From the IMG/VR virus record IMGVR_UViG_3300006754_004387, positions 1 to 21,009 of that record: 21,009 bases of DNA; one strand, 5' to 3'. This DNA comes from a virus. Both the position numbers and the translations under genes were made by a program. Every line of letters begins with the position of its first letter. Position 1 is the first letter of the stretch. Positions 777-17,840 of this stretch are shown here, piece by piece. Under the pieces are notes generated by a model. That model was not told where the DNA came from and ran no database searches. It was given only the letters and a program-made list of their open reading frames with translations.

Positions 777-832
777 CAGGGTGGTGGGTATTTTATACAA
801 CGAGTCCTTTCGTCATACACCCATTGCCCTGT
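776..832 (+). terminator. Hairpin between convergent genes, probable rightward terminator
   Basis: In the rightward transcript 776-789 can pair with 819-832 over 14 consecutive base pairs, three of them G-U, around a 29-base loop that contains a small ACGA/TCGT hairpin (800-803 with 810-813). An AT-rich tail with four T's (833-840) follows. The three G-U pairs become C-A mismatches in the leftward transcript, so the structure favours ending the resolvase operon. Its right arm lies within the last codons and stop of the leftward 896-residue gene. The long loop and weak T tract keep confidence moderate. Confidence 0.5.
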
Positions 833-3503
833 ATAATTTTGTCAATTCTTTTTCTTTCTGAGCATTCACCTCTGCCTGCAACTGAGCTGGAGTCTTCTCT
901 TTCTTTCTACCGTTCTTCTGTTGCTCAGGGAAAAATGGTTTAAGAATTGGGCCTTTTCTAAGTTCTCTTGTCCACGCTCTTGGATACAACCCAAACTCAT
1001 GCATTAAAACATTCCATCCAGTACCATTTTGCAGAGCTTTGGCATCTCTTAAAACTATCTTTGATAGCTGAACATTTAATGTAGATAGTAATCTTTGTTG
1101 CTTCTGTTCATCTGTTAATGCATAAGCATCATTATATCCTACAATTAAATCCTTTAACCTAGTATCAGGCATCTTTATAAAATCATACATTGTAGCTAAG
1201 AAAAATAGATCACCGACAGCGGGACCTATGTATCCTCTACCCTTTATATCTTCTTTGCCTTCCATGAATCCTTTTAAATCTTTTATTCTTTCAACAGTAT
1301 CATTCTCCATTAACCTATGAAAGTCTAGATTAGCTACCCCACTCATCATATGTGTAAAGAAATATAAACCAGCAAACTTTAATGGTACATACATATCAGG
1401 ACTATCCCACTGTTTTGCTATTGCTGCATCTTTTGACTTCCTTAATATTTCAGACTGTAACTGTAAGAATGACATTGGAAAGTGCATGAATTGAAAAGCT
1501 ATCTGACCGAATGAACCCATAGGTTTTGCAGTTCCACCTATTATGGGAGCCTTTTGATGTGGGGCATATGCAAATGCATATTTATTAACTATATCAAGAG
1601 CATATGGTTTTGCTATTTTTATAGCCTCTGACTCACTCAAACCGCCTTCCATCATCTCATTAATCTTAGTCATTAATGAGTACCTCCACATATGTTTTCT
1701 TAAAAAGTTTTCTGTAATCTTCTGAAATATTGCACCCTTACCTGCAGCAGAGGTTAAAGCAGAATCGAATGCTCTCCATACTTTACCATCCTTCCATTGT
1801 AAAACTACATTACCATCAGCGTCGGGTCGTAAGTCAATATCTCTTACCTTAACACCCTCAGTTGGTAAAAAACCTTCAGTATATATTGGAGCAGACATGT
1901 CGGCAAACTTAAATCCTTGTTCTTCTTCAATCTCACTTACAATTTTTCTAATATTTCTATTTCCCTCTGAACTCCAGTCTCTTAAATAACTTATAAATGA
2001 ATTGTTACCTGCTCCCTGTAAAAAATAGAAACCAGAAAATGTATTCCTCGCAGCAGTTCCAACTCCAAATCCTATCTTACTAAGAAACTCAAATCCCGTT
2101 AAAGCTCTTACAGTTTTATTCACCCAAACAGGTCTATCTTGATAGCCTTTTTCTGCCACAGTAAACATGTCATCCAAATAATCTCTTAACCCTTCAGCTA
2201 CTCTGGAATCTTTTGGCAGCTTTTGTATACCATCCATGTAAACACTTCTTATATAATTTGATTTGTTAAAAGCAATAGCATCCATTGAATACTTTCTTAG
2301 TACACTTAAAGGATTCTTCATATAATTTTCAAAAGGAACTCCTCTCCTAAACCTAGCAGATAGTGGCTCACCAAGCTTGCTCCTCATATTAGAGAACACA
2401 GATTCTAATTCTTTAAAATCTTTCTCTGGATTTTTATACCCATCCTTCTCAGCTCTATTCATTATACCTTCTATTTTAACAAACGATTCAAGTAAGTAGT
2501 GTGGGAAATAATTTCCCTTCTTAAGTCCATCAACTATATTTTTAACTTCATCATTTATTTTTTCTTCATATCTTTTTACAAGTTTACCTGTTCTTGTTAA
2601 TAAAGCTTTATTACTTTTATCATTTAGATAAGATTGTCTAATAACAGTTTTGTGTTGTTCAAGGCCTCTAATTAAAACAGTACCCATACGTTCTAATACT
2701 CCTCTAGATAATTCGCCAGCTCTTCTAACATTATAACTAAATTCCTTACCAGTCATATCATCTATTACTTGATGAATATCATTGCCAAATTTATCTGTAC
2801 CTATTTTTGTTGGAGTAGTCTCTAAGTATCTTCTCAGTTCTTCCAAAACCTGACCACCTTCAGACTCGAACACCTTAATAATTTCTTGCCTTATATCATT
2901 TACCTTTTTAATTTGAGCATCTGACTTTGGGTTATGTAATTCAGTTAACAATCTGTTCTCTAACTTCTCTAAGTCCCTGACTTCCTTAATGCCGGGTATA
3001 AGCCTAGACCTACCGGTTCTTTTTAATATCTCAGTTCTTAAATACTTTGACAAATCAATATGAGCGCTTAAATAATGTGAGAACTGCGTTTGTTCGTAGT
3101 TAGTAGCATTGTTTAGTTCTCTATTCATCCAATTTGTTATAGCCCACTTGGACATCACACCTCTCTTAACAAATGCAAATCTTTCTAGAACATTTAGCTT
3201 GGGGTTATTAAGATTCTTTGCTTCTCTCTGAATTTCATTAGCAACCCTTCTAAAATCAGCTTCTTTAAATCCAGTGAAAGAATCAATGGCTGGTTTATAT
3301 GTACCACGCCATACTATTTCTTCAAACATCTTCCTACCCTCAGCGTCAGAAAATCCATAATGTTTTGTTATAGCTTCACCTATAAAACGTTCCTTACCAT
3401 CCACATCTTTAATTCTTTTACCATCAAATAATTGGCGCAACTTATTCAAATTAAATGTTGTGAACTCTTCTCCTTGTTTAGGTGGTGCACATCTTGTAGC
3501 CAT
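813..3503 (-). CDS. 896-residue helical, partly hydrophobic phage protein, putative internal virion or ejection protein
   Basis: This is the last gene of the leftward operon. I chose ATG 3503 because GGGAG (3516-3512) sits 8 bases upstream and the preceding giant gene stops in the same bases (TAATG overlap). A TTG start at 3518 would add five residues. The N-terminal 450 residues look mostly helical and highly charged, without a recognised enzyme motif. Hydrophobic stretches follow at about 471-499 (GFGVGTAARNTFSGFYFL), 652-681 (glycine and aromatic-rich, GSFGQIAFQFMHFPMSFL), 702-726 and 754-774. The 650-780 region, with repeated F/M/H residues, resembles large phage proteins in the 'large polyvalent protein associated domain' group as I remember them; this needs a profile search. 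Coupling to the giant gene suggests that the products are made and possibly packaged together. Membrane interaction during DNA entry is an inference. Confidence 0.75.
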   Translation of the reverse strand: MATRCAPPKQGEEFTTFNLNKLRQLFDGKRIKDVDGKERFIGEAITKHYGFSDAEGRKMFEEIVWRGTYKPAIDSFTGFKEADFRRVANEIQREAKNLNNPKLNVLERFAFVKRGVMSKWAITNWMNRELNNATNYEQTQFSHYLSAHIDLSKYLRTEILKRTGRSRLIPGIKEVRDLEKLENRLLTELHNPKSDAQIKKVNDIRQEIIKVFESEGGQVLEELRRYLETTPTKIGTDKFGNDIHQVIDDMTGKEFSYNVRRAGELSRGVLERMGTVLIRGLEQHKTVIRQSYLNDKSNKALLTRTGKLVKRYEEKINDEVKNIVDGLKKGNYFPHYLLESFVKIEGIMNRAEKDGYKNPEKDFKELESVFSNMRSKLGEPLSARFRRGVPFENYMKNPLSVLRKYSMDAIAFNKSNYIRSVYMDGIQKLPKDSRVAEGLRDYLDDMFTVAEKGYQDRPVWVNKTVRALTGFEFLSKIGFGVGTAARNTFSGFYFLQGAGNNSFISYLRDWSSEGNRNIRKIVSEIEEEQGFKFADMSAPIYTEGFLPTEGVKVRDIDLRPDADGNVVLQWKDGKVWRAFDSALTSAAGKGAIFQKITENFLRKHMWRYSLMTKINEMMEGGLSESEAIKIAKPYALDIVNKYAFAYAPHQKAPIIGGTAKPMGSFGQIAFQFMHFPMSFLQLQSEILRKSKDAAIAKQWDSPDMYVPLKFAGLYFFTHMMSGVANLDFHRLMENDTVERIKDLKGFMEGKEDIKGRGYIGPAVGDLFFLATMYDFIKMPDTRLKDLIVGYNDAYALTDEQKQQRLLSTLNVQLSKIVLRDAKALQNGTGWNVLMHEFGLYPRAWTRELRKGPILKPFFPEQQKNGRKKEKTPAQLQAEVNAQKEKELTKLYRAMGV

Positions 3504-6500
3504 TATCCACACTCCCAAGGGCTTTTATCTTCTGAACTCATATAATTTCTCGAATCCCTATAATATTTCATGTCATTTAATATATCATTGTAAGTACCAT
3601 ACTGCATTATTACATCCATCTCTCCACTAGCATCCATCTTTGTTCTAGCTCTATCATGGTACCTAGATAGCTCATGCCTAAGATGATGTTGCATTGCTGG
3701 CATATATAACCATCCCTTTTCAAAAGCAAGCTCAAATACAGGACTCTTTTCACGAAGCCAATAGTTGTCATTAAAATATAACCTACTCTGCCAAAGCTCT
3801 GCGAACTCGTCTGGAATAACATTATCCATCTTCCTTCTATATACTCTGCCATAGCTACCAAATATACTTTCAAACTCCTCGCTATGCATCTCTCTTAGCA
3901 TCCACCTTGAAACTGCGTTTGTTAACCTTTTGTTAATTCTATATGCAGGCATCTTTAGATTGGTATTAGCTATAAAAGCAGCTCTAAACACAGGCTCAGG
4001 CTTAATTAAATATCTAACTAAACTAGACATTGTCTCATTATAAGTAATATCACGATCTTGTTCACCCCATTGGTTATCAGCACTACGAAGCCATCTTTTC
4101 ATAAAGTCATCTACTAAAGAATCTTCCATCAACCTCTCAAACTGCCAATTTTCTACCTGATGAGGGTTTCTTTCAGCTAATTTATATACTTGACTGGCTA
4201 AGCTACCAAGATTATGTTTCAACTGTTCACTTTCCGCAACGAATTTATTTTTTGTGGCCTCAGGTGAGTGAGGTAATATATGTTCTACCTGTAAATCACC
4301 AACAACCTCAAGCATAGCATATGCATCAATGGATGATTCGTTGCTCCAAGCTGAATTTCTAATAGGATTTCTTAAAATAACATATTCATGACCAGCCTCA
4401 AAACGAAAAGAACCTAAAGGCTCTATATATCCTTTTCTGATAAACTTTAGCCTACCATTTCTATCTCTAAATCTTCTATAAACAAAGGCTCTACCTTTAG
4501 GGTATGGATTGTCGAATTTTACATATCCCTTCTTCTTTTTTGTATTCTTTGTCCTTATATCAAAATGTTTTGTCAATGGATTCTTTTCGTCAGCAGGTTT
4601 TCCCTTTATATGTTGAACTAAATCTGATTCTTTTTGTGTTAAATAATCTAAAAGAGCATCAATATGCATCAGCTTTCTTCTTGCTCTTGTAATTGAATTA
4701 CTTTGATGTCTACCTGCCTTAGATATATATCTCTGTATGGAACCCTTTTCCTCTCTTAAACTGTGAAACAGTAATGAATAATCTTCTATGACACGATCAT
4801 TAACTGTAGATAATTTGCTTATATCTTTCAACACATATTCTGATAACTGTCTTGTTACAATGTTATCATTTTCTTCTATCATATCCCTTATCTTTTCATG
4901 AGTTTTTGAATCACTGAGAGATGATATTACATCTATTTCATCTAATATATCACTAACCTTACGAGCAGATAGTTTTGCTTTTCCTCTCTCTATTGATCTG
5001 CTATATCCACGAAGGTCTGAATCTGACTGACCAAACCTACTGACAATATAATTGCCAACATTACTATCCTTTATAGTCTGAGGATTCTTTATATAAACTA
5101 TTGATTTGGCTGGCTCACCCTTACGAACCTTTCTATAATTCTTTTTTAAGTGTTGCCATTCTCTAAAATCGTCACCTTCACTAGAAAGAAAGTATAATTT
5201 ATTTAGAGCTGTTACCAATTCTTTCTGTTTTTTACGACCACTGTACCTACTCAACAAACTATGATAAATTTCAAGATTAGGATTAGTAGTGAACCTGTGT
5301 AAACTACTTCTCATATAAGCAATTTCATTGGCCTCTGGTGGTCTTCTTCCTCCTGTGTCAAATACATCTGTAAGAAACCTCTGTGACTGTGACAATTTCG
5401 TAAGACTTTCCATTACTATATCTTCTAGGACATCCTTTTCGTACCCAGTTTTTTCACCTTTTATTCTGAAGAACTGTTCATATCCTTCCTCACCATATTT
5501 ACCTAGATCAGCCCTTAATTTTTCATCACCCTCTAGCTTACCATCGAACAATATAAACTTCATTAAATCTCTATGACTTGCCTGAGATGCAAAGTTAGGT
5601 TTCTTTACACTGTCTATAAGGCTTTGTAATACATTCTTATATCTTTGTAGGAATCCACCAAGTCTTAATCTTCCTTCAGTACCCGCAATATCAATCATTG
5701 ATACATCAGCACCAAAGTTAATCTCATCTTTTCCAGCTCTCAGTATGGCAGATAAAGACGATGACAATCTTTTTATTCTACCAAAACTATCCTTGGCTTG
5801 CATATTTAATTGTATATGTTTGTTTATACTATCACCCTTGGGGTATGCACTTCCAGCCCTGCCAAGTTCAGAGTTCGTAGTGCCAAATGGATTTATAACG
5901 GGGCCTTCTGATTCATATACATAAGCATCAATTGAATGACCTGCGAATTTAAATATATCATTGGCTACTTCTGTTGGCTTAACATTATAACTGAACACAG
6001 GATCAACATCAAAGTCTGCCTGATGAGTTTGTGCTATATCATGTATATTAACACCCACTACATTACCCTCAGCTCTATCATAAAATCCCTCAACCTTATG
6101 AACAGCCACATCACCACCAAGGTTAGGCATCCTTAGACTTAGAGAATGAAGATAAAATTTTGAATCCATATCTTTAGAATCTTGGCTTTCATTAAAACGC
6201 TTAAGTCTTTCATGCATATATCTCAGTCTTTTTCTTCCCTTTATACTTCTTTCAAGTGATTCGATCCTCTTAATTTGAGAGTCTAGTTCTTTCGCAGTTA
6301 ACGTATCCAATGGGTCTTGAACAATCCACTTGCCATCCTTGTCTCTACCAATCTGTACATCGCGTCTTACGTTATCCCTTGACACCATTGTTGGTAATGA
6401 AACCTCGACAACATATTGAACCTTTCTAAAATCTTTTATCTCAGCCATGCCGTCAAAGTGAGATAGCTTCTTGCCACCTATAATCGTCTGTCTGCCGTCC

Positions 6501-9500
6501 TTATAAACTGGTATTGATCCCTCTAAAAAAGGAACTAAGATAGAATGAGAAGCTCCATCTACCTTTGGCTTTCTTAAACTATTTACAATATTTCTTACAG
6601 CTATTCTTCTTATTGATTCTCTCATTAAAATAGAAGATGGGTCAGCTCCTACCTCTAAGTACGCTGATATAAGACCATTTGAAGACTCTTCAAACAAAGC
6701 ATTTTCATCTCTTAGAACCCTCATTAAATAATCTGCAGTAGCAATTCTACCTTGACCAATATGAAGACTTGCCAGTTTACCTAACTCTTGTGTAATTCTG
6801 TTTTCATAACCAACATAGTCATTCATGAAAGATTTATAACCCAAGGTTGGTAGAAAATCAGTGAGGCCATAGGTTACGCTTGTTAATGCTTTTCTATCCT
6901 CAACCTTACCCAAGAATATATTCTCGAGTTTCATACGACCCTTATTAAATCCAGTTACATTTTGAAGAGCCAACTTGACAGCGCCTTCCATTGTATTAAT
7001 ATTGTTATCCTTTATCATTTTCTCAGTAACTTCAACAAAATCAGCATTAAAAGCTTTAGCAGCTGACTGAGTTGTTAATATATCTATTCCTAAGTCGTCA
7101 AGTGTCTCTGCTATTTTTCTATTATATACAAAGTTTGACTTTAAAAGAATACTTTCACCGGGTTCATTAAACCATCCGTAAGGTTTGGCTCCTGCGGTTC
7201 CGAATGGCATCTCAAAATCATCTAGTCTTCTACCCTTTGGTAAATATATTAAGTGAGCAGCATTTGTACCCATATAAGACTGAGCATTGGAAGCAGAGCT
7301 GTCTATACTTGCTAATAGTTTATCTAAGGCAGCTTCTTGATCAGCCCTACCGGGTATATTCTGTCCTTTTAATTGATCAAGCTTTCTTTTTGCTAAAAAT
7401 TTTGCGTTTAAGCCTGATCCAGACAACTCATCTCCAAGACCAACAATATTAAATGCTCCTTCTTTTAAGTATGCATCAATAGCAGCAATTTGTTCGCCAT
7501 TAAGACTAAAGACAGCGTCCTCTTTCATTTCTTTATAAAACTGTTCCGAAGCTCTTGTCTTAGCTCCAGTGCCTTCCGCTAATGTTACATACTTAAACAG
7601 TGAAGCTGCTTGATTGTTTAACTCACCAGAGTTTGCCGCTGAAGCCAACATATCGTTGACCATTGTATTGGAAACTTTATCCCAATAAACAGCTCTTACC
7701 ATTTGTTTAACGTCAGACGATGTAGGGGCTCTCTCACCTCCAAAGTCACCATATATAACTTTTATATGCCTAGAAGCCATCCTAGCTTTTTCTCTATCAA
7801 CATTCGTTCTGTTCCTATCAGCTGCAATGCTATCCAAGAATGACACCTTATCATTATACCACGAATCAAACCATTTATTTAATCTTCCATCAGTAAGCTC
7901 ACCAATACCTACAATTAGAGAAGTATTATAACTAACTGGAACTCTTACAGGTTTTGAGAATACTTCAACCTCACTCTGAGTAGTCGCTTCCTGTCTTTCC
8001 TGAGCGTCTTCGAGTCTAAATACATCAGTTAGGTTCTTACTTATACTGTCTTGAGGTTTAGCCTGTTCAATTACATTATCAATATCCTCTATTGTATTAA
8101 CATTAGTCTTTCTTCCTCTATAAACACCAGTCATATCAAGAGTAACAACTGAAACACCTTCACCTCTTAGCTCTTCTATAATCTCACTGGTAAGACCTGT
8201 CCCAGCATTTGATCTCCCTATCTCTAATATTGGTTTTCCATTCTTATCATATGACAGTGATGCACTTGGTACACTGACTCTACCTATTGATATTGCCATT
8301 AAAGCAGGCCATGTATATTTGTTAAAGTCATCTATCTCTTTCTTAATATGATCTGGAAGTTTTTCATATTTAGTGCCATACTCTATATCTTCACCAAGTT
8401 GCATATGCTTAGCGTATATTGCATTTCTTATTTCTTCTCTAATTCTATTCCTATTTGCTTTCAATGCCTTTTCACCTTTAGGCGTGGGATTTTGTAGAAA
8501 AAGACCCCTTCTCTCATCCAACTCAGTTAATAAATTCTGCCATTCCTTACCTTTTAACCACTCATTATACCTACCATACCTCTGAGATATAGTGGCAGGT
8601 GATACATCAGGCATATGTGGCATATTGTTGGTAGAATAATCATTCCACTGTTCAGCTATCTTAGCTTCCTGTTCAAAGTATGATTCCTCGTCAATGCCCT
8701 TACGCCAATTTCTTACGCTCACGTCCATATGATCTACCAGTTTTCTTAAATTGCCTGCATCGGCAAACTTACCAGCAATCTCTCGTAGTGATAAATCTTC
8801 TGGGACATCAACATTCAATTCAGTTCTTAATATTTCAGTAAGTCTAGCGGTTAACCTATCAAGTCTTCTTTTACCCATTATCCTATCAGAAGAATAATTC
8901 ATCAAATCAAATCTTATAGTCTCCAACACAGAATCTAAAGCCAAACTTTCACCTCGGGAATCAGCCAAAGTTTTTTCAATTACCTTAGCTGCACTATCTA
9001 CACCAGCCATTACCTTTTCAAGGGTCTCTCCATCTATTACCCTTTTAATTAAAAGCTCTAGTGGTTTAATATTTTCTTCACCAACAAGTGGATCGTTTTT
9101 ATATTTTTCTATAATACCTTCAACTCTTGCTACTATAGCATCAGATTGTTCTGCGTTATCAATAGATTTTATTGTTGTTCTCTCACCCAACTCATTTTTA
9201 TCATATAAACTTTCAAATAAACCATCAACACTGTCTAAAAACCCAAGGCTCATATCAACAGATTTCTTTGCATCTTCATAATGAACAAGAACCTGCTTAT
9301 CAAAATGTGATGATACCATCCAAGCATCTTCTATCGCAAGAGGTAAGTTTTCAACTTGTTTTAACGGTATACCATCTTGAACATCTACAAACTTACCCTT
9401 GACAGCATGCAATGAATCATAAACATCTTTATATTTCTTTACAAGAGGTTCAATTTCATGTTGATTATCAGTGCCACCATATAAATCAGTTAATGCAGCT

Positions 9501-12361
9501 CTCACAGATTCTACATTCCAAATCTTTAAAACATTTCTACCATTTTCTTTCTCTACTCTGCCCACTTCATGAGCCATTAACCCATCAATCATCGTCAGGT
9601 GCTTTGATGTAATATTAGGTGATGACATTATTCTTGAATAGAAATACCTACGTTGTATCTCTGTGGTATCTCTATCTAAGACGAAACCTTCCTTCTCAAA
9701 CTGTCCAACAATGTCTTTAGCTTCTTCATATTCAACACGACCAGCCTTATCCATCATCTTCAAGTCACCTGTAACTTTTCCCTCGCCCCACATCTTAGCT
9801 AGGTAAGTTATTTTTCTTGATAACTCTATACGATTATCAATTATCTTATCCCACTCGTCATCCTTCGTATCCTTAGGCTTTTTGAGATCAATCGTGCCAA
9901 CAAGATTCATTAAATTTTTAGGAACGGATTCACCAAAGTTTACATCTAAAATTTCCCATAAAATCTTTTGCTTATCACTAAGATTATCAAGCTTACCATC
10001 AACCATATTAAACATTGCTTCTCTATTGCTGGTCTGTCTATAAGAACTCAAAGCCAACAAGAATGAATTTTCTATCGGGTCAATATTCTCAGGATAATTT
10101 GTACCATAGTTCTCCACCCTAAGTCTATCCATCACAGCATCAATTTCCTTCTTGATGTCATGTTTTAATTCTGGTGAATTATCTATATCACTTACTTTTA
10201 ATTCCTCACCGGGAGTTTGCTTAATTGTTTGAATAAGATTTGTCTGTTCATCAAGAGTATCTCTAATTCTATGAGCTAATATAATCTCTTGATATTCAGC
10301 ATTGCCAATATATTGTGATATATCAGGTAGTCTCGCCATTCTAATTGGGGTGTCTATATCAATTTCATTACCCAACTCATGATCTGTTTCCAGCCCAATC
10401 CTTTTTGCTATCCTAACCATTAATTCAGCATATAATTTACCAGTGCCTTCCAATGCTCCCTTTTGAGCTTCCGTTGCAAAGTCATGGAAGTTATCTTCAG
10501 ATAATTTCACACCTTCTTTTATCTCAATTGACTCAAGCTTGGATTGTATTTCTTCCAGTTGAGTAACAGTAAGATTGTCAAGTTTGATTACACGTTCAAG
10601 TAAATTAGGTTCATCAATATTCCTTGACAATGCAGAGTATTCATACAAATTATGAGCCCATCTAACCAAGTTTAATCTTGTTGGTATGTTTTCTTTTAAA
10701 CCTACCGGTTCTCCCCATTGCCCGCCTTCCTGTTGTTTCCTAAGTTCTTCACTGCTAAATATATTTTCTATCCTGTTAACAACAGGGTTAGCCAACAAAC
10801 CAGAAAAAGCAGCTCCTAAGTGCATCTGATTATCAAATGCTTTAGCGTAATGAGATATATTTTCGGGATTCATTCCAAGATACTGTAAAGCCAGTGATCT
10901 TTCTTCAAACTTGTTTAAATGAGGATGCTTCTCAATAAATAGTGGTTTCTTTAACTTAGTAAACCATGCTCCGACCAGTAGATGAGCCATTATTTCTTCA
11001 GGTGGTAAAGCTTTTAAAAGATTGGTATCCATTATGGTGTGCATATTAAAATAAAGAGCACCAAGAGTCATTCTACCTAATGAAGCAATAAAGTCCTCAC
11101 CAGCATATTTATAAAAGTCTTTCCATACAGTTGGTACATCAACCAAACCGACAACTCTCTTTAATGCATCGACAGCTTCTTCTCTTGGTAAATTCTTATA
11201 AGCCCAGTTGCCAGCTTCCTTGCCAATTATTGTATCCTTTAAATAATTATCTCTTGATATAATCTTTAATAGACCATTAACCTGTTCCTCGTTTAGACCT
11301 TTATAATTATTAGATGATCCTTTTGTTATGTTATTCAAGGTCTTTCTAAGATTCGTGGCAGTCTTTCTTATGTGAACCTTACCGCCACCACCAACCATTT
11401 CAACTGCAGGTAAAAAGGCGGCAAATATAAAGGCATCTTTAACATCAGCAACTGGATCAAATTCCTTTTCACCAGCCAATGAATGAACGCCATCATAAAT
11501 AAGATTATATATAGCAAATGAAGTTCCCATCTCAGCTGCTCTTGCAACATATTTTGTTATATTACTTTTCTCAGCGACTCCAAACTTTGCGTTCAGACCT
11601 TTTTCTATAAGCCTACCAAGGTTATTTATATGTACACCTTCTGTAGTAAGAGCCCTAGTAGCTTCATCACCTACTGTTTTTAAAATATCATCAGTTGCGT
11701 CAGGAAACTCTCTTTTTAGGGATTCATATATTGATCCTCTTACAACATCTTTAACCTTACTAACCTCATCCAAACTTAATTCATACTTTGGAAGAATAAA
11801 TTTCTTCATAACCTGAGGTTCTTTTAAAGCAGTAGAGACTGCTCTCTCAGCTATTTCTCTACTAAGACCTATCTCTGACCTTACAGCAACATCACCAGCT
11901 TCTTTGACAGCCTTTCCTACAAGATTTGAAGTTCCAGCTTTAGTGACTGCAGATACACCAGCTCTTACTCCCATTCCTACCCATTTAATTGGAACAAGGA
12001 ATCCAGCAGCTTCACCAATAACACCACCAACAGTAGCAAGTCCCTCTGTTTTACCTTCTAATAAACTATATGGTTTTTCACCTGTAGCAGCCTTTACACC
12101 TATACCCGGAATACCTACAAGAGCACTGTCAACAAAATGCCATAAGGCAGAACCAACTCCATGAAGAACACCTGATGCTTTTTCAGGCTCATCTGGAACA
12201 TCAAGATCAACCAATACATCGCCTAATAGTTGTTCGTATAGGGATGGGTTCTCTCCAAGACTTCTTTTTTGAGACACCAATGGTTGAACTTGAGTCATGA
12301 CTCCCTGTTTTTGTTTCTTCAACAGGTCGTCCATGAACTGTTTAGTTAGATTGTCAGGCAT
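3503..12361 (-). CDS. Giant 2952-residue phage protein, probable two-barrel (DPBB) virion RNA polymerase
   Basis: It probably copies phage early genes after entering the host with the DNA. Seen in order: a charged N-terminus; a glycine-rich hydrophobic region (64-150) and two more hydrophobic stretches (278-295, 309-328); a long helical region to about 1400; a mixed region ending in LLKSNFVYNRK with K1741 and K1749; R2077-M-P; ADFDVD with D2116, D2118, D2120; a helix LQSLIDSVKKPNF (about 2243-2256); and an EHILPH...HNLGSL block (2693-2721) resembling an HNH nuclease. In cellular polymerases the catalytic beta lysines are also eight residues apart, and the beta' R-x-P lies 35 residues before the first aspartate of NADFDGD (39 here). 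phi14:2-type crAss-like phages carry virion polymerases with D-x-D-x-D. ATG 12361 lies 3 bases after the previous stop, without a clear Shine-Dalgarno site, so translation is probably coupled. The gene is certain; the polymerase role is strongly suggested but not proven. Confidence 0.8.
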   Translation of the reverse strand: MPDNLTKQFMDDLLKKQKQGVMTQVQPLVSQKRSLGENPSLYEQLLGDVLVDLDVPDEPEKASGVLHGVGSALWHFVDSALVGIPGIGVKAATGEKPYSLLEGKTEGLATVGGVIGEAAGFLVPIKWVGMGVRAGVSAVTKAGTSNLVGKAVKEAGDVAVRSEIGLSREIAERAVSTALKEPQVMKKFILPKYELSLDEVSKVKDVVRGSIYESLKREFPDATDDILKTVGDEATRALTTEGVHINNLGRLIEKGLNAKFGVAEKSNITKYVARAAEMGTSFAIYNLIYDGVHSLAGEKEFDPVADVKDAFIFAAFLPAVEMVGGGGKVHIRKTATNLRKTLNNITKGSSNNYKGLNEEQVNGLLKIISRDNYLKDTIIGKEAGNWAYKNLPREEAVDALKRVVGLVDVPTVWKDFYKYAGEDFIASLGRMTLGALYFNMHTIMDTNLLKALPPEEIMAHLLVGAWFTKLKKPLFIEKHPHLNKFEERSLALQYLGMNPENISHYAKAFDNQMHLGAAFSGLLANPVVNRIENIFSSEELRKQQEGGQWGEPVGLKENIPTRLNLVRWAHNLYEYSALSRNIDEPNLLERVIKLDNLTVTQLEEIQSKLESIEIKEGVKLSEDNFHDFATEAQKGALEGTGKLYAELMVRIAKRIGLETDHELGNEIDIDTPIRMARLPDISQYIGNAEYQEIILAHRIRDTLDEQTNLIQTIKQTPGEELKVSDIDNSPELKHDIKKEIDAVMDRLRVENYGTNYPENIDPIENSFLLALSSYRQTSNREAMFNMVDGKLDNLSDKQKILWEILDVNFGESVPKNLMNLVGTIDLKKPKDTKDDEWDKIIDNRIELSRKITYLAKMWGEGKVTGDLKMMDKAGRVEYEEAKDIVGQFEKEGFVLDRDTTEIQRRYFYSRIMSSPNITSKHLTMIDGLMAHEVGRVEKENGRNVLKIWNVESVRAALTDLYGGTDNQHEIEPLVKKYKDVYDSLHAVKGKFVDVQDGIPLKQVENLPLAIEDAWMVSSHFDKQVLVHYEDAKKSVDMSLGFLDSVDGLFESLYDKNELGERTTIKSIDNAEQSDAIVARVEGIIEKYKNDPLVGEENIKPLELLIKRVIDGETLEKVMAGVDSAAKVIEKTLADSRGESLALDSVLETIRFDLMNYSSDRIMGKRRLDRLTARLTEILRTELNVDVPEDLSLREIAGKFADAGNLRKLVDHMDVSVRNWRKGIDEESYFEQEAKIAEQWNDYSTNNMPHMPDVSPATISQRYGRYNEWLKGKEWQNLLTELDERRGLFLQNPTPKGEKALKANRNRIREEIRNAIYAKHMQLGEDIEYGTKYEKLPDHIKKEIDDFNKYTWPALMAISIGRVSVPSASLSYDKNGKPILEIGRSNAGTGLTSEIIEELRGEGVSVVTLDMTGVYRGRKTNVNTIEDIDNVIEQAKPQDSISKNLTDVFRLEDAQERQEATTQSEVEVFSKPVRVPVSYNTSLIVGIGELTDGRLNKWFDSWYNDKVSFLDSIAADRNRTNVDREKARMASRHIKVIYGDFGGERAPTSSDVKQMVRAVYWDKVSNTMVNDMLASAANSGELNNQAASLFKYVTLAEGTGAKTRASEQFYKEMKEDAVFSLNGEQIAAIDAYLKEGAFNIVGLGDELSGSGLNAKFLAKRKLDQLKGQNIPGRADQEAALDKLLASIDSSASNAQSYMGTNAAHLIYLPKGRRLDDFEMPFGTAGAKPYGWFNEPGESILLKSNFVYNRKIAETLDDLGIDILTTQSAAKAFNADFVEVTEKMIKDNNINTMEGAVKLALQNVTGFNKGRMKLENIFLGKVEDRKALTSVTYGLTDFLPTLGYKSFMNDYVGYENRITQELGKLASLHIGQGRIATADYLMRVLRDENALFEESSNGLISAYLEVGADPSSILMRESIRRIAVRNIVNSLRKPKVDGASHSILVPFLEGSIPVYKDGRQTIIGGKKLSHFDGMAEIKDFRKVQYVVEVSLPTMVSRDNVRRDVQIGRDKDGKWIVQDPLDTLTAKELDSQIKRIESLERSIKGRKRLRYMHERLKRFNESQDSKDMDSKFYLHSLSLRMPNLGGDVAVHKVEGFYDRAEGNVVGVNIHDIAQTHQADFDVDPVFSYNVKPTEVANDIFKFAGHSIDAYVYESEGPVINPFGTTNSELGRAGSAYPKGDSINKHIQLNMQAKDSFGRIKRLSSSLSAILRAGKDEINFGADVSMIDIAGTEGRLRLGGFLQRYKNVLQSLIDSVKKPNFASQASHRDLMKFILFDGKLEGDEKLRADLGKYGEEGYEQFFRIKGEKTGYEKDVLEDIVMESLTKLSQSQRFLTDVFDTGGRRPPEANEIAYMRSSLHRFTTNPNLEIYHSLLSRYSGRKKQKELVTALNKLYFLSSEGDDFREWQHLKKNYRKVRKGEPAKSIVYIKNPQTIKDSNVGNYIVSRFGQSDSDLRGYSRSIERGKAKLSARKVSDILDEIDVISSLSDSKTHEKIRDMIEENDNIVTRQLSEYVLKDISKLSTVNDRVIEDYSLLFHSLREEKGSIQRYISKAGRHQSNSITRARRKLMHIDALLDYLTQKESDLVQHIKGKPADEKNPLTKHFDIRTKNTKKKKGYVKFDNPYPKGRAFVYRRFRDRNGRLKFIRKGYIEPLGSFRFEAGHEYVILRNPIRNSAWSNESSIDAYAMLEVVGDLQVEHILPHSPEATKNKFVAESEQLKHNLGSLASQVYKLAERNPHQVENWQFERLMEDSLVDDFMKRWLRSADNQWGEQDRDITYNETMSSLVRYLIKPEPVFRAAFIANTNLKMPAYRINKRLTNAVSRWMLREMHSEEFESIFGSYGRVYRRKMDNVIPDEFAELWQSRLYFNDNYWLREKSPVFELAFEKGWLYMPAMQHHLRHELSRYHDRARTKMDASGEMDVIMQYGTYNDILNDMKYYRDSRNYMSSEDKSPWECG
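3512..3516 (-). promoter_or_regulatory. Ribosome binding site deciding the 896-residue start
   Basis: GGGAG on the minus strand, 8 bases before the ATG at 3503, lies within the last codons of the giant gene. It supports the ATG at 3503 rather than the upstream TTG at 3518, for which the site would be mispositioned. Confidence 0.65.
4139..4285 (-). other. Candidate HNH-type nuclease motif inside the giant protein
   Basis: Residues 2693-2741 contain VEHILPHSP with H2694, HNLGSLAS with N2717, and ENWQF with N2738. The order and spacing (23, then 21 residues) resemble the DUF1524/GmrSD C-terminal HNH pattern: E-H-I-L-P-Q, then N-x-LGNL, then N-x-x-F. The LGNL asparagine is serine here (LGSL), and the third metal ligand could be N2732, H2734 or N2738. 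This is a motif match by eye only. Confidence 0.4.
6002..6133 (-). other. Catalytic-barrel signature (R-x-P ... ADFDVD) of the giant protein
   Basis: Residues 2077-2120 run from RMPNLGG to ADFDVDP. They match the beta'-type double-psi barrel of RNA polymerases: R-x-P that contacts the nucleotide, a hydrophobic VEGF stretch comparable to IQAF, then three aspartates (2116, 2118, 2120) that would hold the catalytic magnesium. The glycine of DFDGD is valine here, as allowed by the looser D-x-D-x-D form of phage enzymes. Confidence 0.7.
7115..7141 (-). other. Paired-lysine signature of the first polymerase barrel
   Basis: K1741 and K1749 in LLKSNFVYNRK are eight residues apart, the same interval as the two invariant lysines of the bacterial beta subunit (K-x7-K in GDK...GNKG). 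They lie 367 residues before D2116, on the expected N-terminal side. The DLGIDILTTQSAAKAF stretch that follows is another pattern I recall from giant phage polymerase-like proteins. Confidence 0.5.
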
Positions 12362-12364
12362 ATT

Positions 12365-13450
12365 TTATGAGTATGGACTGTAAGCGCCGCCAGTCGCTTC
12401 TCTTTTTATATCCATAAAGGATTCGAGTTTTCTTTCGTTTAATTCCTGTTTAAAAGTTCTTTGGTTTCTTTCAAGTTGTTCTATATCACTGTTAAGTAAT
12501 GATATTTGTTTTTCAAACTCAGATTTAATCTCGTCTTCTCTATCAATAAAATCTTTTTGTTGTTGCGTTATTTCCCTACCAGCTCCTTGAATAAACTTTA
12601 TATCTCTTACTTGATTTTCCATATCATCAATCGCTTTTGATATTAATTCTATTTCACCCTGCTTAGTCTTAGCTGAAGTTCCAAACTCTGTAAGCTGCTC
12701 ATCAAGAGGTAAAGTTGTATCAACATCTGTGACATCTTTCTCTTCAGTTACACCTTCCAATTCCAATGAGGATAGTACTTTAGCGGCATCAGAGTATAAA
12801 TCTATTTCTTGTATTTCATATTCACCCTTTAAAAATTCTTCAGTTTCTTTTAAGATAAGATTCTGATTATTTAAAAGACGATCCATATCCAAGAAGTCTC
12901 CAACAGACTCACTAACACCTTTATCGCTTACATCTGAAAAGTATCCGAGCTTACCAAGAGCTTTAACAATCTTTGTTTCCTTAGCTGTCTTCTTATGTGA
13001 AGGGTCTGCCAATGCACTTAAGCTAGAACCTATCTTTAATATCGCTTCAGGGTTTTGAGCTTCTTGAGCTGACCATAATGCAGAAACTAAATCATTGGCC
13101 GTATCTTTATCTAATCCTATTTGATATTCATCAGTACCCCAGAAACCACCTGTTCCTATTAACTCATCACGAGCGTTCTTTAAAGCATCTTTATCATCTT
13201 TATATTTTGCATACAAACCAGACAAACCTGACTCATAAATAAATTCAGAAGCCTTCTTAGTCATTAACTGCTGATTTACTGAAGTCATTATTTCTAGATT
13301 CTTACCAGCTACAGTTATATCTTGAGCTCTTTGTTGTGAAGCGATTTGCATATAGGCAAGAGCCTCTGAAACCTTACGGCTTTCTCTAGTCTCCTGATAT
13401 TGTAACATTCTGTTAAATGACGCTAATACGTCATATGCTTCAACTGCCAT
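12365..13450 (-). CDS. 361-residue helical coiled-coil protein, unknown, putative internal virion protein
   Basis: I do not recognise a named family. The protein is rich in E, K, Q, D and L and should be largely alpha-helical. An N-terminal helical part (about 1-75, with MQIASQQRAQDITVAGKN) precedes a more compact middle containing GTGGFWGTDEYQIGLD (about 99-115). A predicted coiled coil follows at about 255-345 (from KTKQGEIELISKAIDDMENQ), before a short glycine-tyrosine tail, GGAYSPYS. There is no signal peptide or membrane helix. The ATG at 13450 directly follows the previous stop (TAA|ATG, no gap), and the stop lies 3 bases before the giant gene, so translation is likely coupled on both sides. 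A soluble helical protein between tail genes and a giant polymerase-like gene fits an ejected or scaffold-like internal virion component; this is inference from position. Confidence 0.8.
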   Translation of the reverse strand: MAVEAYDVLASFNRMLQYQETRESRKVSEALAYMQIASQQRAQDITVAGKNLEIMTSVNQQLMTKKASEFIYESGLSGLYAKYKDDKDALKNARDELIGTGGFWGTDEYQIGLDKDTANDLVSALWSAQEAQNPEAILKIGSSLSALADPSHKKTAKETKIVKALGKLGYFSDVSDKGVSESVGDFLDMDRLLNNQNLILKETEEFLKGEYEIQEIDLYSDAAKVLSSLELEGVTEEKDVTDVDTTLPLDEQLTEFGTSAKTKQGEIELISKAIDDMENQVRDIKFIQGAGREITQQQKDFIDREDEIKSEFEKQISLLNSDIEQLERNQRTFKQELNERKLESFMDIKREATGGAYSPYS

Positions 13451-14185
13451 TTATCCAAACCAACCTGATTCTTCTCTTTTTTTAGCAAAATCTAATTGCT
13501 TCATAAGACTTGCCCTATTAGCTGCTATATTTGCTTTTTGACTTTCAAACCATCCTTCGACTTCTCCCATTTTAGAACCCAAAGAAGCCAGTAAACTTTT
13601 TTTACCTCTACCAAATGCACCTGAAATACGATCCCACATTATAGATTTTTTATCCTGCGCTCCACCAGCAGTTACCAGACCACTCTTTTCAATTGCTCTA
13701 TTAGTTTGTTCGTTCAAATCTTCTCTTGCTATACCTGTCTGCGATGATAAATCATCAACTCCCATTCCATACTCAGCCATATTTGCATTAACTTTTGAAG
13801 AGTAACCTTGTTGGAGAACCTTTTCTTGTGTATCTAAAGCAACTAACTCATCATTTATATATTGCTGCTCAACTCTTGCCTGGTCTTTTTCTGCTGATTG
13901 ACCAGATAAATGACTAAAACCCTGTACAGCAAATTGACCAATTGCTAGGGCTGTCATTGGTTCAACAAACTGTTCTTCCAATCCAGTCTCAGGATTAGTA
14001 GTTCCAGAACCAACAGCATCCACTAATTTTTCACCTTCCTTACCCATCATACCAATCAATGCTTTTTCTGCAGGGTTAACATGCCATAGTTTACCCTCAG
14101 ATGTACGAGCTATATCTGTATCTCCATGCCTGCCTTTACTGGCAAGGCTTGAAAGATGATTATCTGCTAGTGATTTGCCAGCCAT
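13451..14185 (-). CDS. Phage virion-associated protein with GRHGDT ... NPETG motif, unknown function
   Basis: This is a 244-residue protein if read from ATG 14185, or 248 from ATG 14197. I prefer 14185, 1 base after the previous stop, because GAGG lies 12 bases upstream, whereas the ATG at 14197 abuts that site with no space. The N-terminal part holds GRHGDTDIAR (about 18-27), NPAEKALIGMM (37-47) and GSGTTNPETGLEEQF (59-73). I have seen this G-R-x-G-D-T followed by N-P-x-T-G-L pattern in uncharacterised structural proteins of many marine and other short-tailed phages, often near tail and internal virion genes. After a short hydrophobic stretch (about 77-90) the rest is helical and ends KKREESGWFG. 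The role is unknown; a minor virion or internal-core protein is most likely. Confidence 0.8.
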   Translation of the reverse strand: MAGKSLADNHLSSLASKGRHGDTDIARTSEGKLWHVNPAEKALIGMMGKEGEKLVDAVGSGTTNPETGLEEQFVEPMTALAIGQFAVQGFSHLSGQSAEKDQARVEQQYINDELVALDTQEKVLQQGYSSKVNANMAEYGMGVDDLSSQTGIAREDLNEQTNRAIEKSGLVTAGGAQDKKSIMWDRISGAFGRGKKSLLASLGSKMGEVEGWFESQKANIAANRASLMKQLDFAKKREESGWFG

Positions 14186-14186
14186 A

Positions 14187-15038
14187 TTAATACTCATCCT
14201 CGGGTGGATTGTACCAGTCAGGGTTAAGAACTGGGGATTTGAAGTTAAGAACTGAGGATTCGAAAGGAACAGCTTCCTCTGAAACCACTGTCATATCTGT
14301 TTTTTTGCCACTTTTCTTGGCTGTTTTTGGAGCATCTAATCCCGTCTGATATTCATACATCTTTCGAGCTTCCTCACTCATATTCGTAGGGTCATAAGCA
14401 CCCGAAACAGCCTTCTTTGAAAAAAGGTTTGATAACTTTTCTTTACCAGCTGCAAAGATAGACTTCTCACCTGTAATATCTCCCAAGTCAAATCCCTTTT
14501 TCTCACCATAAAATTGACCAGATGGAGCAGCGGGAGGAGCTTGAGCTGCTTCTTTATACATACTTAAATCAGCTTTTACACCGTATTTAGCCCCTTCTCC
14601 TATACCTGAGATAGTTCCTTTTCCTAAAGAATATCTATCTTTACCCTCTCCAAATTTATACTTAGTGCCTTCTTTAAAAGTCCAAGTCTCCTCAGGAGCA
14701 AATGACTCAAGATATTTCTTACCCTCAGTCGTTCCAATAAATGATTCATAATCCTCGCCAGTATATGACTCTCTAGCAATTTGACTCTGCACACCAGTTT
14801 TAGCAGTCTCAAATTCTTGCTTAGCTTCCCATCCACCAAACAAAGTACTGGTAAGACTTATTCCTTCTGAAACTGTGCCTATAAGTTTCTGTGCCTGTCC
14901 TTGACCCCAATCCATAATTTGAAGTTCACCCTTCATCAAATCACCAATGCTTTTTACAGCAGTCTCAGCGGCTTGAACCTTACCTTCAGCTGCGGAAGCC
15001 CCTGCGAATGTACTATATAATGATTTTCCGTTTGGCAT
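14187..15038 (-). CDS. 283-residue unknown protein, putative internal virion protein
   Basis: I do not recognise a family. The first ~80 residues are alanine, glycine and serine-rich with regular spacing (STFAGASAAEGKVQAAETA), suggesting an amphipathic helix of the sort found in phage ejection proteins. The middle (about 95-165) is rich in K, G, E, Y and F and could be beta or disordered. A P/A-rich linker (AQAPPAAPSG, about 165-174) follows. The C-terminus is extended and acidic, ending PDWYNPPEDEY, and includes the tandem heptad FESSVLN-FKSPVLN. The start is well supported by AGAGGA (15049-15044) 5 bases before ATG 15038. The gene opens a run of three unknown genes directly upstream of the giant gene, whose products are probably used together. 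Confidence 0.8.
   Translation of the reverse strand: MPNGKSLYSTFAGASAAEGKVQAAETAVKSIGDLMKGELQIMDWGQGQAQKLIGTVSEGISLTSTLFGGWEAKQEFETAKTGVQSQIARESYTGEDYESFIGTTEGKKYLESFAPEETWTFKEGTKYKFGEGKDRYSLGKGTISGIGEGAKYGVKADLSMYKEAAQAPPAAPSGQFYGEKKGFDLGDITGEKSIFAAGKEKLSNLFSKKAVSGAYDPTNMSEEARKMYEYQTGLDAPKTAKKSGKKTDMTVVSEEAVPFESSVLNFKSPVLNPDWYNPPEDEY
14198..14201 (-). promoter_or_regulatory. GAGG site deciding between two starts
   Basis: GAGG on the minus strand touches the ATG at 14197 but stands 12 bases before the ATG at 14185. A second GAG lies 7 bases before 14185. Both point to the downstream ATG as the working start. Confidence 0.4.
14223..14264. repeat. 21-bp tandem duplication, two copies
   Basis: Two adjacent 21-base units (14223-14243 and 14244-14264) differ at only two positions. 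The length is seven codons, so the duplication keeps frame and gives FESSVLN followed by FKSPVLN near the C-terminus of the 283-residue protein. One of the two base differences turns serine into proline; the other is silent. The glutamate-to-lysine change is created at the junction codon beside the first copy. Confidence 0.8.
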
Positions 15039-15093: not shown

Positions 15094-16050
15094 TTATGAA
15101 GCCCATTCAGTCGTAGAGAAATCTAAAGTAGGGGTTTCTCCAAATGGTTGAAAAAATACGTTTATATTATAATCAGTTCTTATTTTATTAGCAACTGTAG
15201 CTCCCGCAGTTGTATCGTATCCAAAAAAATTAATACCCACTACTATACTATAAAAAGTTGAGTCGTGGTGAGTTAAAGCATATAAATCAGGACTTCCACC
15301 TTTAGTATTTGTAGTAACTGCAAAACGATGAGAACCAGTTATATGAATTGATTCAACAGGAGAATAAAATAAATTATTTTCAACATCATCTAATGCCCAT
15401 TTATTATTGTGAGCAGTGTGCTGGTCACTATAAGTTGATGTATTCATTACATATTCAGTGTGATATCCATCTTCACCATAAGACGATGCTGAGTTATTTA
15501 AATCATCGGAGATAGAGTTTCCTAAACTTTTTATAGTCTTGGTTCCCATTTGTAAATAATTTGAACCATGACCGTAGGCATTGTTTGAACGACCAATTAA
15601 TTGAGACCTTATATAACTGTTACATTTTGGATCAGTAATTGATTCAAACCATGTCCCAGATTCTGCGTATCCCGATGGATTATCATGCTGTGTTCCATAT
15701 ACCAAACTTGAACTCAATGTCATTCCACCTGATACCCAAAATAAGAAACAATCAAAATCTCCAAACGATTGATATGTATCAGTGCGGTCTGTTGCTGCTA
15801 AATGCGTACTTGCATCTAGGTTGTTAGGGGCGGGAGGTGTTGTATTTCCATACGGATTAGATTCTTTAGAACCCGTAGGAAGAGTCATTCCGCTTGACCA
15901 ATTAGTATAATATACTTCATTTGTATCGTCTTTATTATCACTGTTGTCATAAGAATTTCTGATATTAACTGTGAGAAAACCTGATATTAATCTATCTGGA
16001 GGAACTCGTGCGTATGTTTTATAATTTGCTAATCTTGGAAAATCACCCAT
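15094..16050 (-). CDS. 318-residue possible tail or receptor-binding protein
   Basis: No family is recognised. The protein is rich in N, S, T, Y, D and G with few lysines, the composition of an extracellular beta-rich virion protein. After MGDFPRLANYKTYARVPPD comes a beta-like FLTVNIRNSYDN segment. A long polar stretch holds DFDCFLFWVSGGMTL (about 97-111) and SPVESIHITGSHRFAVTT (about 229-246), and the C-terminus contains YNINVFFQPFGE. There is no lysin, peptidase or glycosidase motif. The position directly after the tail fibre suggests a second fibre subunit, a tip or receptor-binding protein, or a decoration protein. TAAGG sits 9 bases before ATG 16050. The gene is followed by the largest gap in the operon, so it may close the tail-fibre block. 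Confidence 0.8.
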   Translation of the reverse strand: MGDFPRLANYKTYARVPPDRLISGFLTVNIRNSYDNSDNKDDTNEVYYTNWSSGMTLPTGSKESNPYGNTTPPAPNNLDASTHLAATDRTDTYQSFGDFDCFLFWVSGGMTLSSSLVYGTQHDNPSGYAESGTWFESITDPKCNSYIRSQLIGRSNNAYGHGSNYLQMGTKTIKSLGNSISDDLNNSASSYGEDGYHTEYVMNTSTYSDQHTAHNNKWALDDVENNLFYSPVESIHITGSHRFAVTTNTKGGSPDLYALTHHDSTFYSIVVGINFFGYDTTAGATVANKIRTDYNINVFFQPFGETPTLDFSTTEWAS

Positions 16051-16059
16051 TATATTTTA

Positions 16060-16064
16060 CCTTA
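16060..16064 (-). promoter_or_regulatory. Ribosome binding site overlapping the stop codon of the tail fibre gene
   Basis: TAAGG on the minus strand uses the fibre's TAA stop (16064-16062) as part of the binding site for the 318-residue gene, whose ATG (16050) begins 9 bases later. This couples translation of the two genes. Confidence 0.6.
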
Positions 16065-17840
16065 CCAATTATCAAAGCTAGTATCAGCAGTTACTCCAGA
16101 TATAGAAGCGGCAGCAGCTGAATATATACCTAACAAAGAATAATTATTCTGTTTATCTGCTAAACCCATCGTCATATGGTTTGTGGAATCCGCAGGCTTT
16201 ATATTAACAGCATAGTCATCAATAAAACAACTTCTAATAACTACATTACCAGTGCCATCACTTCTTGTTAATAATAAATTTGTAGCTGAGTTATGTATGT
16301 CCCAGTAGTTTTCAACATCACCAGACCCATCAGACTCAGCAAGTCTTACCCTTGCATCAGCAGAAGCAGCTCCAGTTTCAGTATCTTGAATAGTTAGAAC
16401 TGGATCAGCTCCTTTCATATGAAGTAACGACTCTGGAGTAGGATCACCTATTCCAACTCGAGCAGTATCCGTTATTCTCATAACTTCAGTTCCATCAAAC
16501 TGATTAAAAACTAAATCATCACCATCTACATTCAGATTTATATCAATATCTCCTGCAGTACCATCTACATCAATAGTTAATTGTGTTGTTCCAGCATCCT
16601 TAAACTCAAAGTTTCCACCCGCAGCATCTAAAACAACATCAGCAGCAGAATCTAACAAAATATCCCCTGAACTTGTTGATTGTAAAGTTACTCCTGTATG
16701 ACCGTCAACTGTTACAGTTGATCCAGCAGAGTCAACTACGAGAGCTCCAAGTCCTTCAATAGTCGCTCCATCACCTGAATGTGTTATATTAAAGGGGCCA
16801 CCATCACCCATACTAATGACGGAATTATCTGACGTAAGCGATAAATCATCTCCTACGGTCAAATCTCCTGCAAATGCGCCTGTAAGGTCATCGCTAATAG
16901 TTAATGCAGTCGCTAGAGAATTTAGTGTGCTACCAGAACTACCAGCATTAGCAGTCTGAAATATAATATCACCGCCTGCACCAGAACCTTTTCCTTGTCC
17001 ACCTTGAAATGTAAGAGCTCCACCAGCTATATTATTAGTTGTACCTGCTGTAGTATTACCTGCTGAAATAGTTAATGCTTTTCCCGCTGCATTATGAGCA
17101 GTAGCAGTAATTGTATTAGTAGCATTTTGGCCATTGCCATATACAATATCGCCGCCAGTAACAGTCAAATCAGTTCCAACAGTCATAGTAGTTGTAGATT
17201 GTAGGGCGGCGCTTGACTTAACAATATCTTCAGTAAGTAATAAAGTCCCAGCACTTGCGCTGCTGTCTATCGTTGAGCCATTTGCTAGTGTTATATCTCC
17301 ACCTGCGATAGTCAAATTACCAGCAATAATAACATTATGAGATGCATCAATTGAGAATGAGTTATTAGCAAGTGTGACGTCAAAGGCTGCGTCAGTGTTA
17401 ATAACAAATGCATCCGATGAGTCATCAATACCCATGATTGTCTTCAATGTTGAATGACCCCATACAACACTCCTATCAGTTCCATCAGCATCAGAACCAA
17501 TTATCATTGTACTTGTCATTGCTCTTGAACCATCAATCAATAAATATTGCTCATGGTCATCATCTCCTAAACCAGCTAAACCATCATGGCTTGAAATTCC
17601 TGCTCCGCCTGCAGTTCCTCTAGTCCCTCCTACAATTCTTATTGCTGGCATTTCACCAGAAGAAGCAACTGCTACCCACTCATTTGATTGTTTTACATAT
17701 TCAACAGTGCCAGATCCATCTATCTGCCTAAAAGAAATATCACCGTCATATCCTTCTTTATCATCTGGCTTGCCGACACCAAGAGTTGGTTGCTTGGACT
17801 TCTGATGTAATAACTTTCGTTCTTCTCTTGATAATGGCAT
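16062..17840 (-). CDS. 592-residue phage tail fibre protein
   Basis: This should be a trimeric fibre that reaches for the host surface. The N-terminal part (to about residue 60) has GYDGDISFRQ...VEYVKQSNEWVAV, a D-G-D-I ... Y-V-K ... W-x-x-V module I recognise from N-termini of phage fibres that attach to the particle. HDGLAGLGDDDHEQYLLIDGSRAM (split: HDGLAGL at 85-91 and DHEQYLLIDGSRAM at 95-108) is a common collar motif. From there to about 450 the chain is repetitive, G/D/T/S-rich, with recurring L-T-V/I-x-G-D units as in beta-helical shafts. RVGIGDPTPESLLHM (about 460-474) is another frequent fibre motif. The end, SGVTADTSFDNW, shows no self-cleaving chaperone domain. Its ATG overlaps the stop of the nozzle gene by one base (TAATG). 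Family confidence is high; the receptor is unknown. Confidence 0.9.
   Translation of the reverse strand: MPLSREERKLLHQKSKQPTLGVGKPDDKEGYDGDISFRQIDGSGTVEYVKQSNEWVAVASSGEMPAIRIVGGTRGTAGGAGISSHDGLAGLGDDDHEQYLLIDGSRAMTSTMIIGSDADGTDRSVVWGHSTLKTIMGIDDSSDAFVINTDAAFDVTLANNSFSIDASHNVIIAGNLTIAGGDITLANGSTIDSSASAGTLLLTEDIVKSSAALQSTTTMTVGTDLTVTGGDIVYGNGQNATNTITATAHNAAGKALTISAGNTTAGTTNNIAGGALTFQGGQGKGSGAGGDIIFQTANAGSSGSTLNSLATALTISDDLTGAFAGDLTVGDDLSLTSDNSVISMGDGGPFNITHSGDGATIEGLGALVVDSAGSTVTVDGHTGVTLQSTSSGDILLDSAADVVLDAAGGNFEFKDAGTTQLTIDVDGTAGDIDINLNVDGDDLVFNQFDGTEVMRITDTARVGIGDPTPESLLHMKGADPVLTIQDTETGAASADARVRLAESDGSGDVENYWDIHNSATNLLLTRSDGTGNVVIRSCFIDDYAVNIKPADSTNHMTMGLADKQNNYSLLGIYSAAAASISGVTADTSFDNW

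Follow-up and report, generated by a model that had tools for sequence, protein, structure and literature searches.

We find that the window, by which we mean the whole stretch of DNA analysed (a complete IMG/VR entry of 21,009 bases), encodes a giant protein that is, with a probability of about 90%, a single-chain two-barrel DNA-dependent RNA polymerase (RNAP) of the crAss-like/QDE-1 clade. A first-pass annotation, made from the letters alone, had proposed such an enzyme. The proposal is now backed by catalytic residues that are kept in 14 of 14 family members, by a sole significant match among PDB structures and by a profile match above all decoys. The annotation was also right about the open reading frame and its length; the strand, which it did not give, is minus. 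The features of the window are collected in Table 1.

Table 1. Features of the 21,009-base window
Feature	Position	Strand	Basis
Giant ORF, 2952 aa	3503..12361	-	ORF call and translation, ATG start; 13 divergent homologues of 2830-3013 aa
RNA polymerase core (predicted), residues ~1323-2453	5003..8396	-	Aligned structurally to phi14:2 RNAP residues 306-1825
N-terminal extension, residues 1-873	9743..12361	-	Hydropathy, predicted model; all-helical
C-terminal extension, residues ~2454-2952	3506..5002	-	Beyond the 6vr4-aligned region
K1726, invariant lysine 1, DPBB-B (beta-like) barrel region	7184..7186	-	14/14
K1741, invariant lysine 2 (first lysine of the annotated K-x7-K)	7139..7141	-	14/14; counterpart of phi14:2 K1027 by spacing
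K1749 (second lysine of the annotated K-x7-K), not conserved	7115..7117	-	K in 5/14
K1769 in SAAK, invariant lysine 3	7055..7057	-	14/14; paired by hhalign with D-G-V-K1065 of phi14:2
R2077-x-P2079 (LSLRMPNL), arginine motif of DPBB-A (beta'-like)	6125..6133	-	R and P 14/14; aligned to phi14:2 GYRIPN
D2116-F-D2118-V-D2120, putative metal-binding catalytic triad of DPBB-A	6002..6016	-	14/14
901-aa companion protein	813..3518	-	Overlaps the end of the giant ORF; adjoins the giant in relatives
Three small genes (361, 248 and 283 aa)	12365..15038	-	Just upstream of the giant; order kept in relatives G001 and G003
Likely tail/fibre structural genes (318, 592 and 990 aa)	15094..20812	-	Upstream, same operon; order as in G001

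Homologues of the giant protein

The giant protein had no match in Pfam, PHROGs, NCBIfam or the PDB sequences. The entry point to its family was a scan with the 901-aa neighbour protein, which led to two IMG/VR contigs with a giant ORF in the same place. Alignments from these first two contigs led to further loci and to a total of 14 distinct giants (13 homologues and the window's own; 2830-3013 aa, pairwise identity 16-83%), one of which, that of locus L011, is cut by the locus end. Extension of the family starting from L016 and L023 recovered only these two themselves. A search of the 14-member alignment against the same four libraries returned nothing usable, tblastn searches of 50,697 phage records with three of the giants as queries found no match, and none of 558 pattern matches in the GTDB genome collection was a relative. 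None of the libraries that we searched includes this family.

Conservation of the catalytic motifs

The residues that the first-pass annotation had picked out (K1741, K1749, R2077-x-P and D2116/D2118/D2120, with 39 residues from the arginine to the first aspartate) all lie where it placed them. On its own this observation could have been chance, since each motif occurs in the single sequence at about the frequency found in shuffles: 15 observed versus 18.4 expected for K-x7-K, 9 versus 5.7 for R-x-P and 1 versus 1.0 for D-x-D-x-D. Across the family, K1726, K1741, K1769, R2077, P2079, Q2114, D2116, D2118 and D2120 are invariant (14/14). The assignment of R-x-P and D-x-D-x-D to a beta'-type barrel is borne out by this invariance and by the interval, which is the same in the virion RNAP of phi14:2 (GYRIPN ... 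GSDFDID; 39 from R1322 to D1361).

The reading of K-x7-K as the barrel signature of bacterial beta did not survive. K1749 is a lysine in just 5 of the 14 giants (elsewhere L, N, V, Y, D or Q), so the spacing is a coincidence. Judged by conservation, K1769 is a better candidate than K1749 for the second catalytic lysine. The 12 crAss-like RNAPs that we compared have three invariant lysines (K1012, K1027 and K1065 of phi14:2; 12/12). They are spaced 15/38 in phi14:2 and 15/28 in the giant family, the first spacing being common to both, and spacing together with the profile alignment indicates K1012 as the counterpart of K1726. On these sequence comparisons the conserved lysine spacing is of the crAss-like type, unlike that of bacterial beta. 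QDE-1 uses two lysines that are 24 residues apart, K743 and K767 (PMC1750930). This indicates that widely spaced lysines are normal for the clade and that the bacterial K-x7-K was the wrong yardstick.

A giant tail or ejection protein of unrelated origin that carries the motifs by chance would be in keeping with their frequency in the single sequence and with the lack of a match in any library. Set against the invariance of the motifs, the profile match and a sole significant fold match that is itself an RNAP (both described below), such a protein is hardly credible.

Both motif regions lie on a single chain in all 14 relatives, unlike the bacterial arrangement with the barrels on separate subunits. 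The aspartate motif reads HQGDFDAD in L003. The giant of L023 (L023:152-8959), one of the two most divergent, has E-R-G-P ... N-A-Q-A-D-W-D-G-D. Its QADWDGD is near the cellular NADFDGD, and at this motif L023 is closer to cellular beta' than is the rest of the family. It may help to bridge these polymerase families to the cellular form.

Profile and structure comparisons

Using hhalign, we compared the 14-member alignment with crAss RNAPs (n = 12) and obtained scores of 49 and 46 (P 2e-4, probability 44-47%). Ten decoys, among them the N-terminal part of the giant, the 901-aa protein, reversed profiles and six column shuffles, scored 14-24. The aligned profiles run collinearly for ~780 columns, with SAAK1769 opposite DGVK1065, LRMPN opposite YRIPN and NAQSY opposite TDAQAW. 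At the level of profiles the match to crAss RNAPs exceeds every decoy, but the probability attached to it is just 44-47%.

The core (residues 1320-2510) was modelled blind with AlphaFold from the 14-member alignment, with moderate confidence (pLDDT 65, pTM 0.65). In a Foldseek search of 350,542 PDB chains, the sole match below E 0.001 was 6vr4, the virion RNAP of phi14:2 (E 1.1e-6). VIA aligned 734 residues of 6vr4 with Z 9.9 and an rmsd of 6.8, a large value that we attribute to the imperfect model. Elsewhere VIA gave Z values of 7.9-6.6 for RDR2, 6.5 for QDE-1, 6.3 for P23-45 gp64 and 4.6 for Pol I. The individual values are modest; ranks 1-9 hold only two-barrel RNAP folds, and the unrelated chains that come next have Z 3.6 and below. 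A structure prediction with a Foldseek comparison had been suggested at first pass, with the phi14:2 polymerase and QDE-1 in mind; the former was the top match and the latter was also among the two-barrel matches. The predicted model supports the presence of both barrels within one chain and the overall fold.

A BFVD search with the core model returned crAss RNAPs and unnamed viral proteins (TM up to 0.54). The unnamed proteins indicate that public data already contain further, unannotated relatives. Four entries (A0A516L9L2, A0A516M3R5, A0A516LHK8 and A0A516MLC8) have strong fold similarity to the core, with E down to 1.8e-20; they are deposited as pieces of larger proteins and probably belong to the family.

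The extensions

The polymerase core makes up little more than a third of the giant protein. Podoviruses commonly have giant ejection proteins that lack polymerase activity, and a polymerase-derived ejection or structural protein that has lost its activity could account for so much additional sequence. We regard this as quite improbable: the aspartate triad, the arginine and the three lysines are kept in 14 of 14 members at identities down to 16%, and an inactive remnant would not keep its catalytic residues. From this conservation and the fold similarity we infer that the giant is an active polymerase.

The N-terminal extension is predicted to consist entirely of helices. Its hydropathy marks hydrophobic stretches near residues 107-132 and 307-329, which vary between members. 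Its model (pLDDT 62, pTM 0.43) was obtained in the same way as that of the core and doubles as a negative control for the fold search. Against the PDB, this 873-residue model gave no significant match, only generic helical matches of low confidence. The likeliest role of these ~870 residues, which are helical and in part hydrophobic, would be in packaging or in crossing the host envelope. In the C-terminal extension, N2665, P2666, P2788 and P2805 are invariant in the family alignment. We dropped QVEHILPHS, near residue 2693, as a candidate HNH-like stretch, since it is absent from the relatives.

Gene neighbourhood

The relative G001, of 51.7 kb, shows the wider gene order. One strand carries TerS (phrog_51), TerL (phrog_38, 1.8e-71), portal (phrog_156, 6e-55), a probable head protein (phrog_1328, 0.0013), tail/fibre-like genes, three small proteins, the giant and an 899-aa companion. 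On the opposite strand are a RuvC-like resolvase, DnaB helicase (phrog_19, 8.5e-67), a DNA-methylase-like gene and an exonuclease. The window has the same order up to the contig ends, and the shared order, which in G001 includes the terminase, portal and head genes, supports the late structural operon that had been postulated at first pass.

The three small upstream genes have no family match and are a candidate ejection-protein cassette. The 592-aa (16062-17840) and 990-aa (17840-20812) products, both on the minus strand and also without a family match, are probably fibre and tail proteins, to judge by position and repetitive composition. The 901-aa protein is 51-57% identical in close relatives, versus about 30-43% for the giant; it belongs to no family and might take part in ejection or transcription as a partner. 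Beside the late operon, on the plus strand (131-589), the window encodes a RuvC-like Holliday junction resolvase (phrog_1770, E 1.4e-22), which is placed identically in L002, L003 and G001. A search for early-promoter motifs in three relatives found nothing exceeding shuffled controls. PF00940 (T7-type RNAP) was not matched in 15 related contigs, nor in control genomes, so this search was uninformative.

Since the gene closes a late structural/ejection cassette, an encapsidated and ejected polymerase is likely, and on this gene position we consider it probable that the giant is a component of the virion. The following cycle is probable. The giant would be made late and packed in the virion; the polymerase would be ejected with the first DNA and would transcribe early phage genes before new phage proteins exist. 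In catalysis, DPBB-B would supply basic residues from K1726/K1741/K1769, and DPBB-A would supply R2077 and the Mg-binding D2116/D2118/D2120.

A two-barrel RNAP might instead be made after infection and transcribe genes of the middle or late phase, as P23-45 gp64 or YonO do, and gp64, a non-virion RNAP, is indeed among the structural matches. We consider this unlikely, as the gene ends a structural/ejection operon apart from the opposite-strand replication genes, the hydrophobic N-terminal extension is unlike compact non-virion enzymes, and the closest fold is that of a virion RNAP. For the virion polymerase, a bolder and rather doubtful proposal is that one polypeptide combines part of the ejection conduit with the first polymerase: the helical, hydrophobic N-terminal ~870 residues would insert into the envelope of the host, and the two-barrel enzyme, nearer the C-terminus, would meanwhile transcribe the incoming genome and perhaps help to draw it in. 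The phages would be a small-genome, probably short-tailed lineage outside Crassvirales.

With regard to Crassvirales, none of 12 portal matches was crAss-like, the similarity to any known phage being weak. For TerL, similarity was likewise weak, and no crAss-like phage was found among the best 15 of 61 matches or among those tallied by name. As far as such weak sequence similarity allows, the family appears to stand apart from Crassvirales.

Comparison with known systems

Experiments have established two-barrel polymerases that are packaged in virions for few phage groups (crAss-like, P23-45-like and jumbo phages). The present family, missed by sequence libraries, comes from phages whose contigs have so far not exceeded 52 kb. 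It suggests that early transcription independent of the host may be more frequent among uncultured phages than their annotation reveals. It adds 14 divergent sequences to the clade that connects the polymerases of phages with those of eukaryotic RNA silencing. Enzymes of this kind are already known: crAss-like phages and P23-45 have virion RNAPs with two barrels on a single chain.

The virion RNAP of N4 is a T7-like right-hand polymerase, whereas the predicted fold of the giant is two-barrel. The packaging and ejection logic would be shared: the N4 (Schitoviridae) vRNAP of ~3500 aa is packaged and ejected with two other ejection proteins (PMC12633501). Podovirus cargo proteins are also packed and ejected in crAss001 (PMC10172136), and the small ejection-like genes beside the giant resemble the cargo arrangement of crAss001 and of N4.

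QDE-1 and RDR2 resemble the giant in structure (Z 6.5-7.9), and QDE-1 does so also in having lysines that are not K-x7-K. Both differ in being eukaryotic, with a role in RNA silencing, and have no detectable sequence match to the giant.

The RNAPs of phi14:2 type and of P23-45 are proven virion components (PMC10770324, PMC7886860, PMC10172136). P23-45 has a vRNAP, gp96, which is joined to the tail tape measure protein, and an nvRNAP, gp64 (PMC10770324). In gp96 a two-barrel RNAP lies within a giant virion protein, as is probably the case here, and its interval from R-x-P to D, counted on the sequence, is 38. The RNAP of gp96 is N-terminal in a 5002-aa tape measure, whereas that of the giant is central, and the neighbouring genes resemble a short-tail ejection cassette. 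The fold ranks favour the phi14:2/RDR side over P23-45, though the lower ranks are tied.

Three crAss-like phage records (MT774376, NC_055868 and NC_055872) have RNAPs in 13-15-kb ORFs labelled hypothetical protein, 'DNA helicase' or 'exonuclease V'; these look like misannotated polymerase fusions. The contigs of the giant family differ from crAss-like phages in reaching at most 52 kb so far, many being fragments. The phi14:2 RNAP (locus tag gp077 in KC821624, 2180 aa) shares with the giant the single chain, the position as a late structural gene and the R-x-P to D interval, and it is the best fold match. The two differ in sequence (~11% identity) and in size, the giant having a much longer N-terminal extension.
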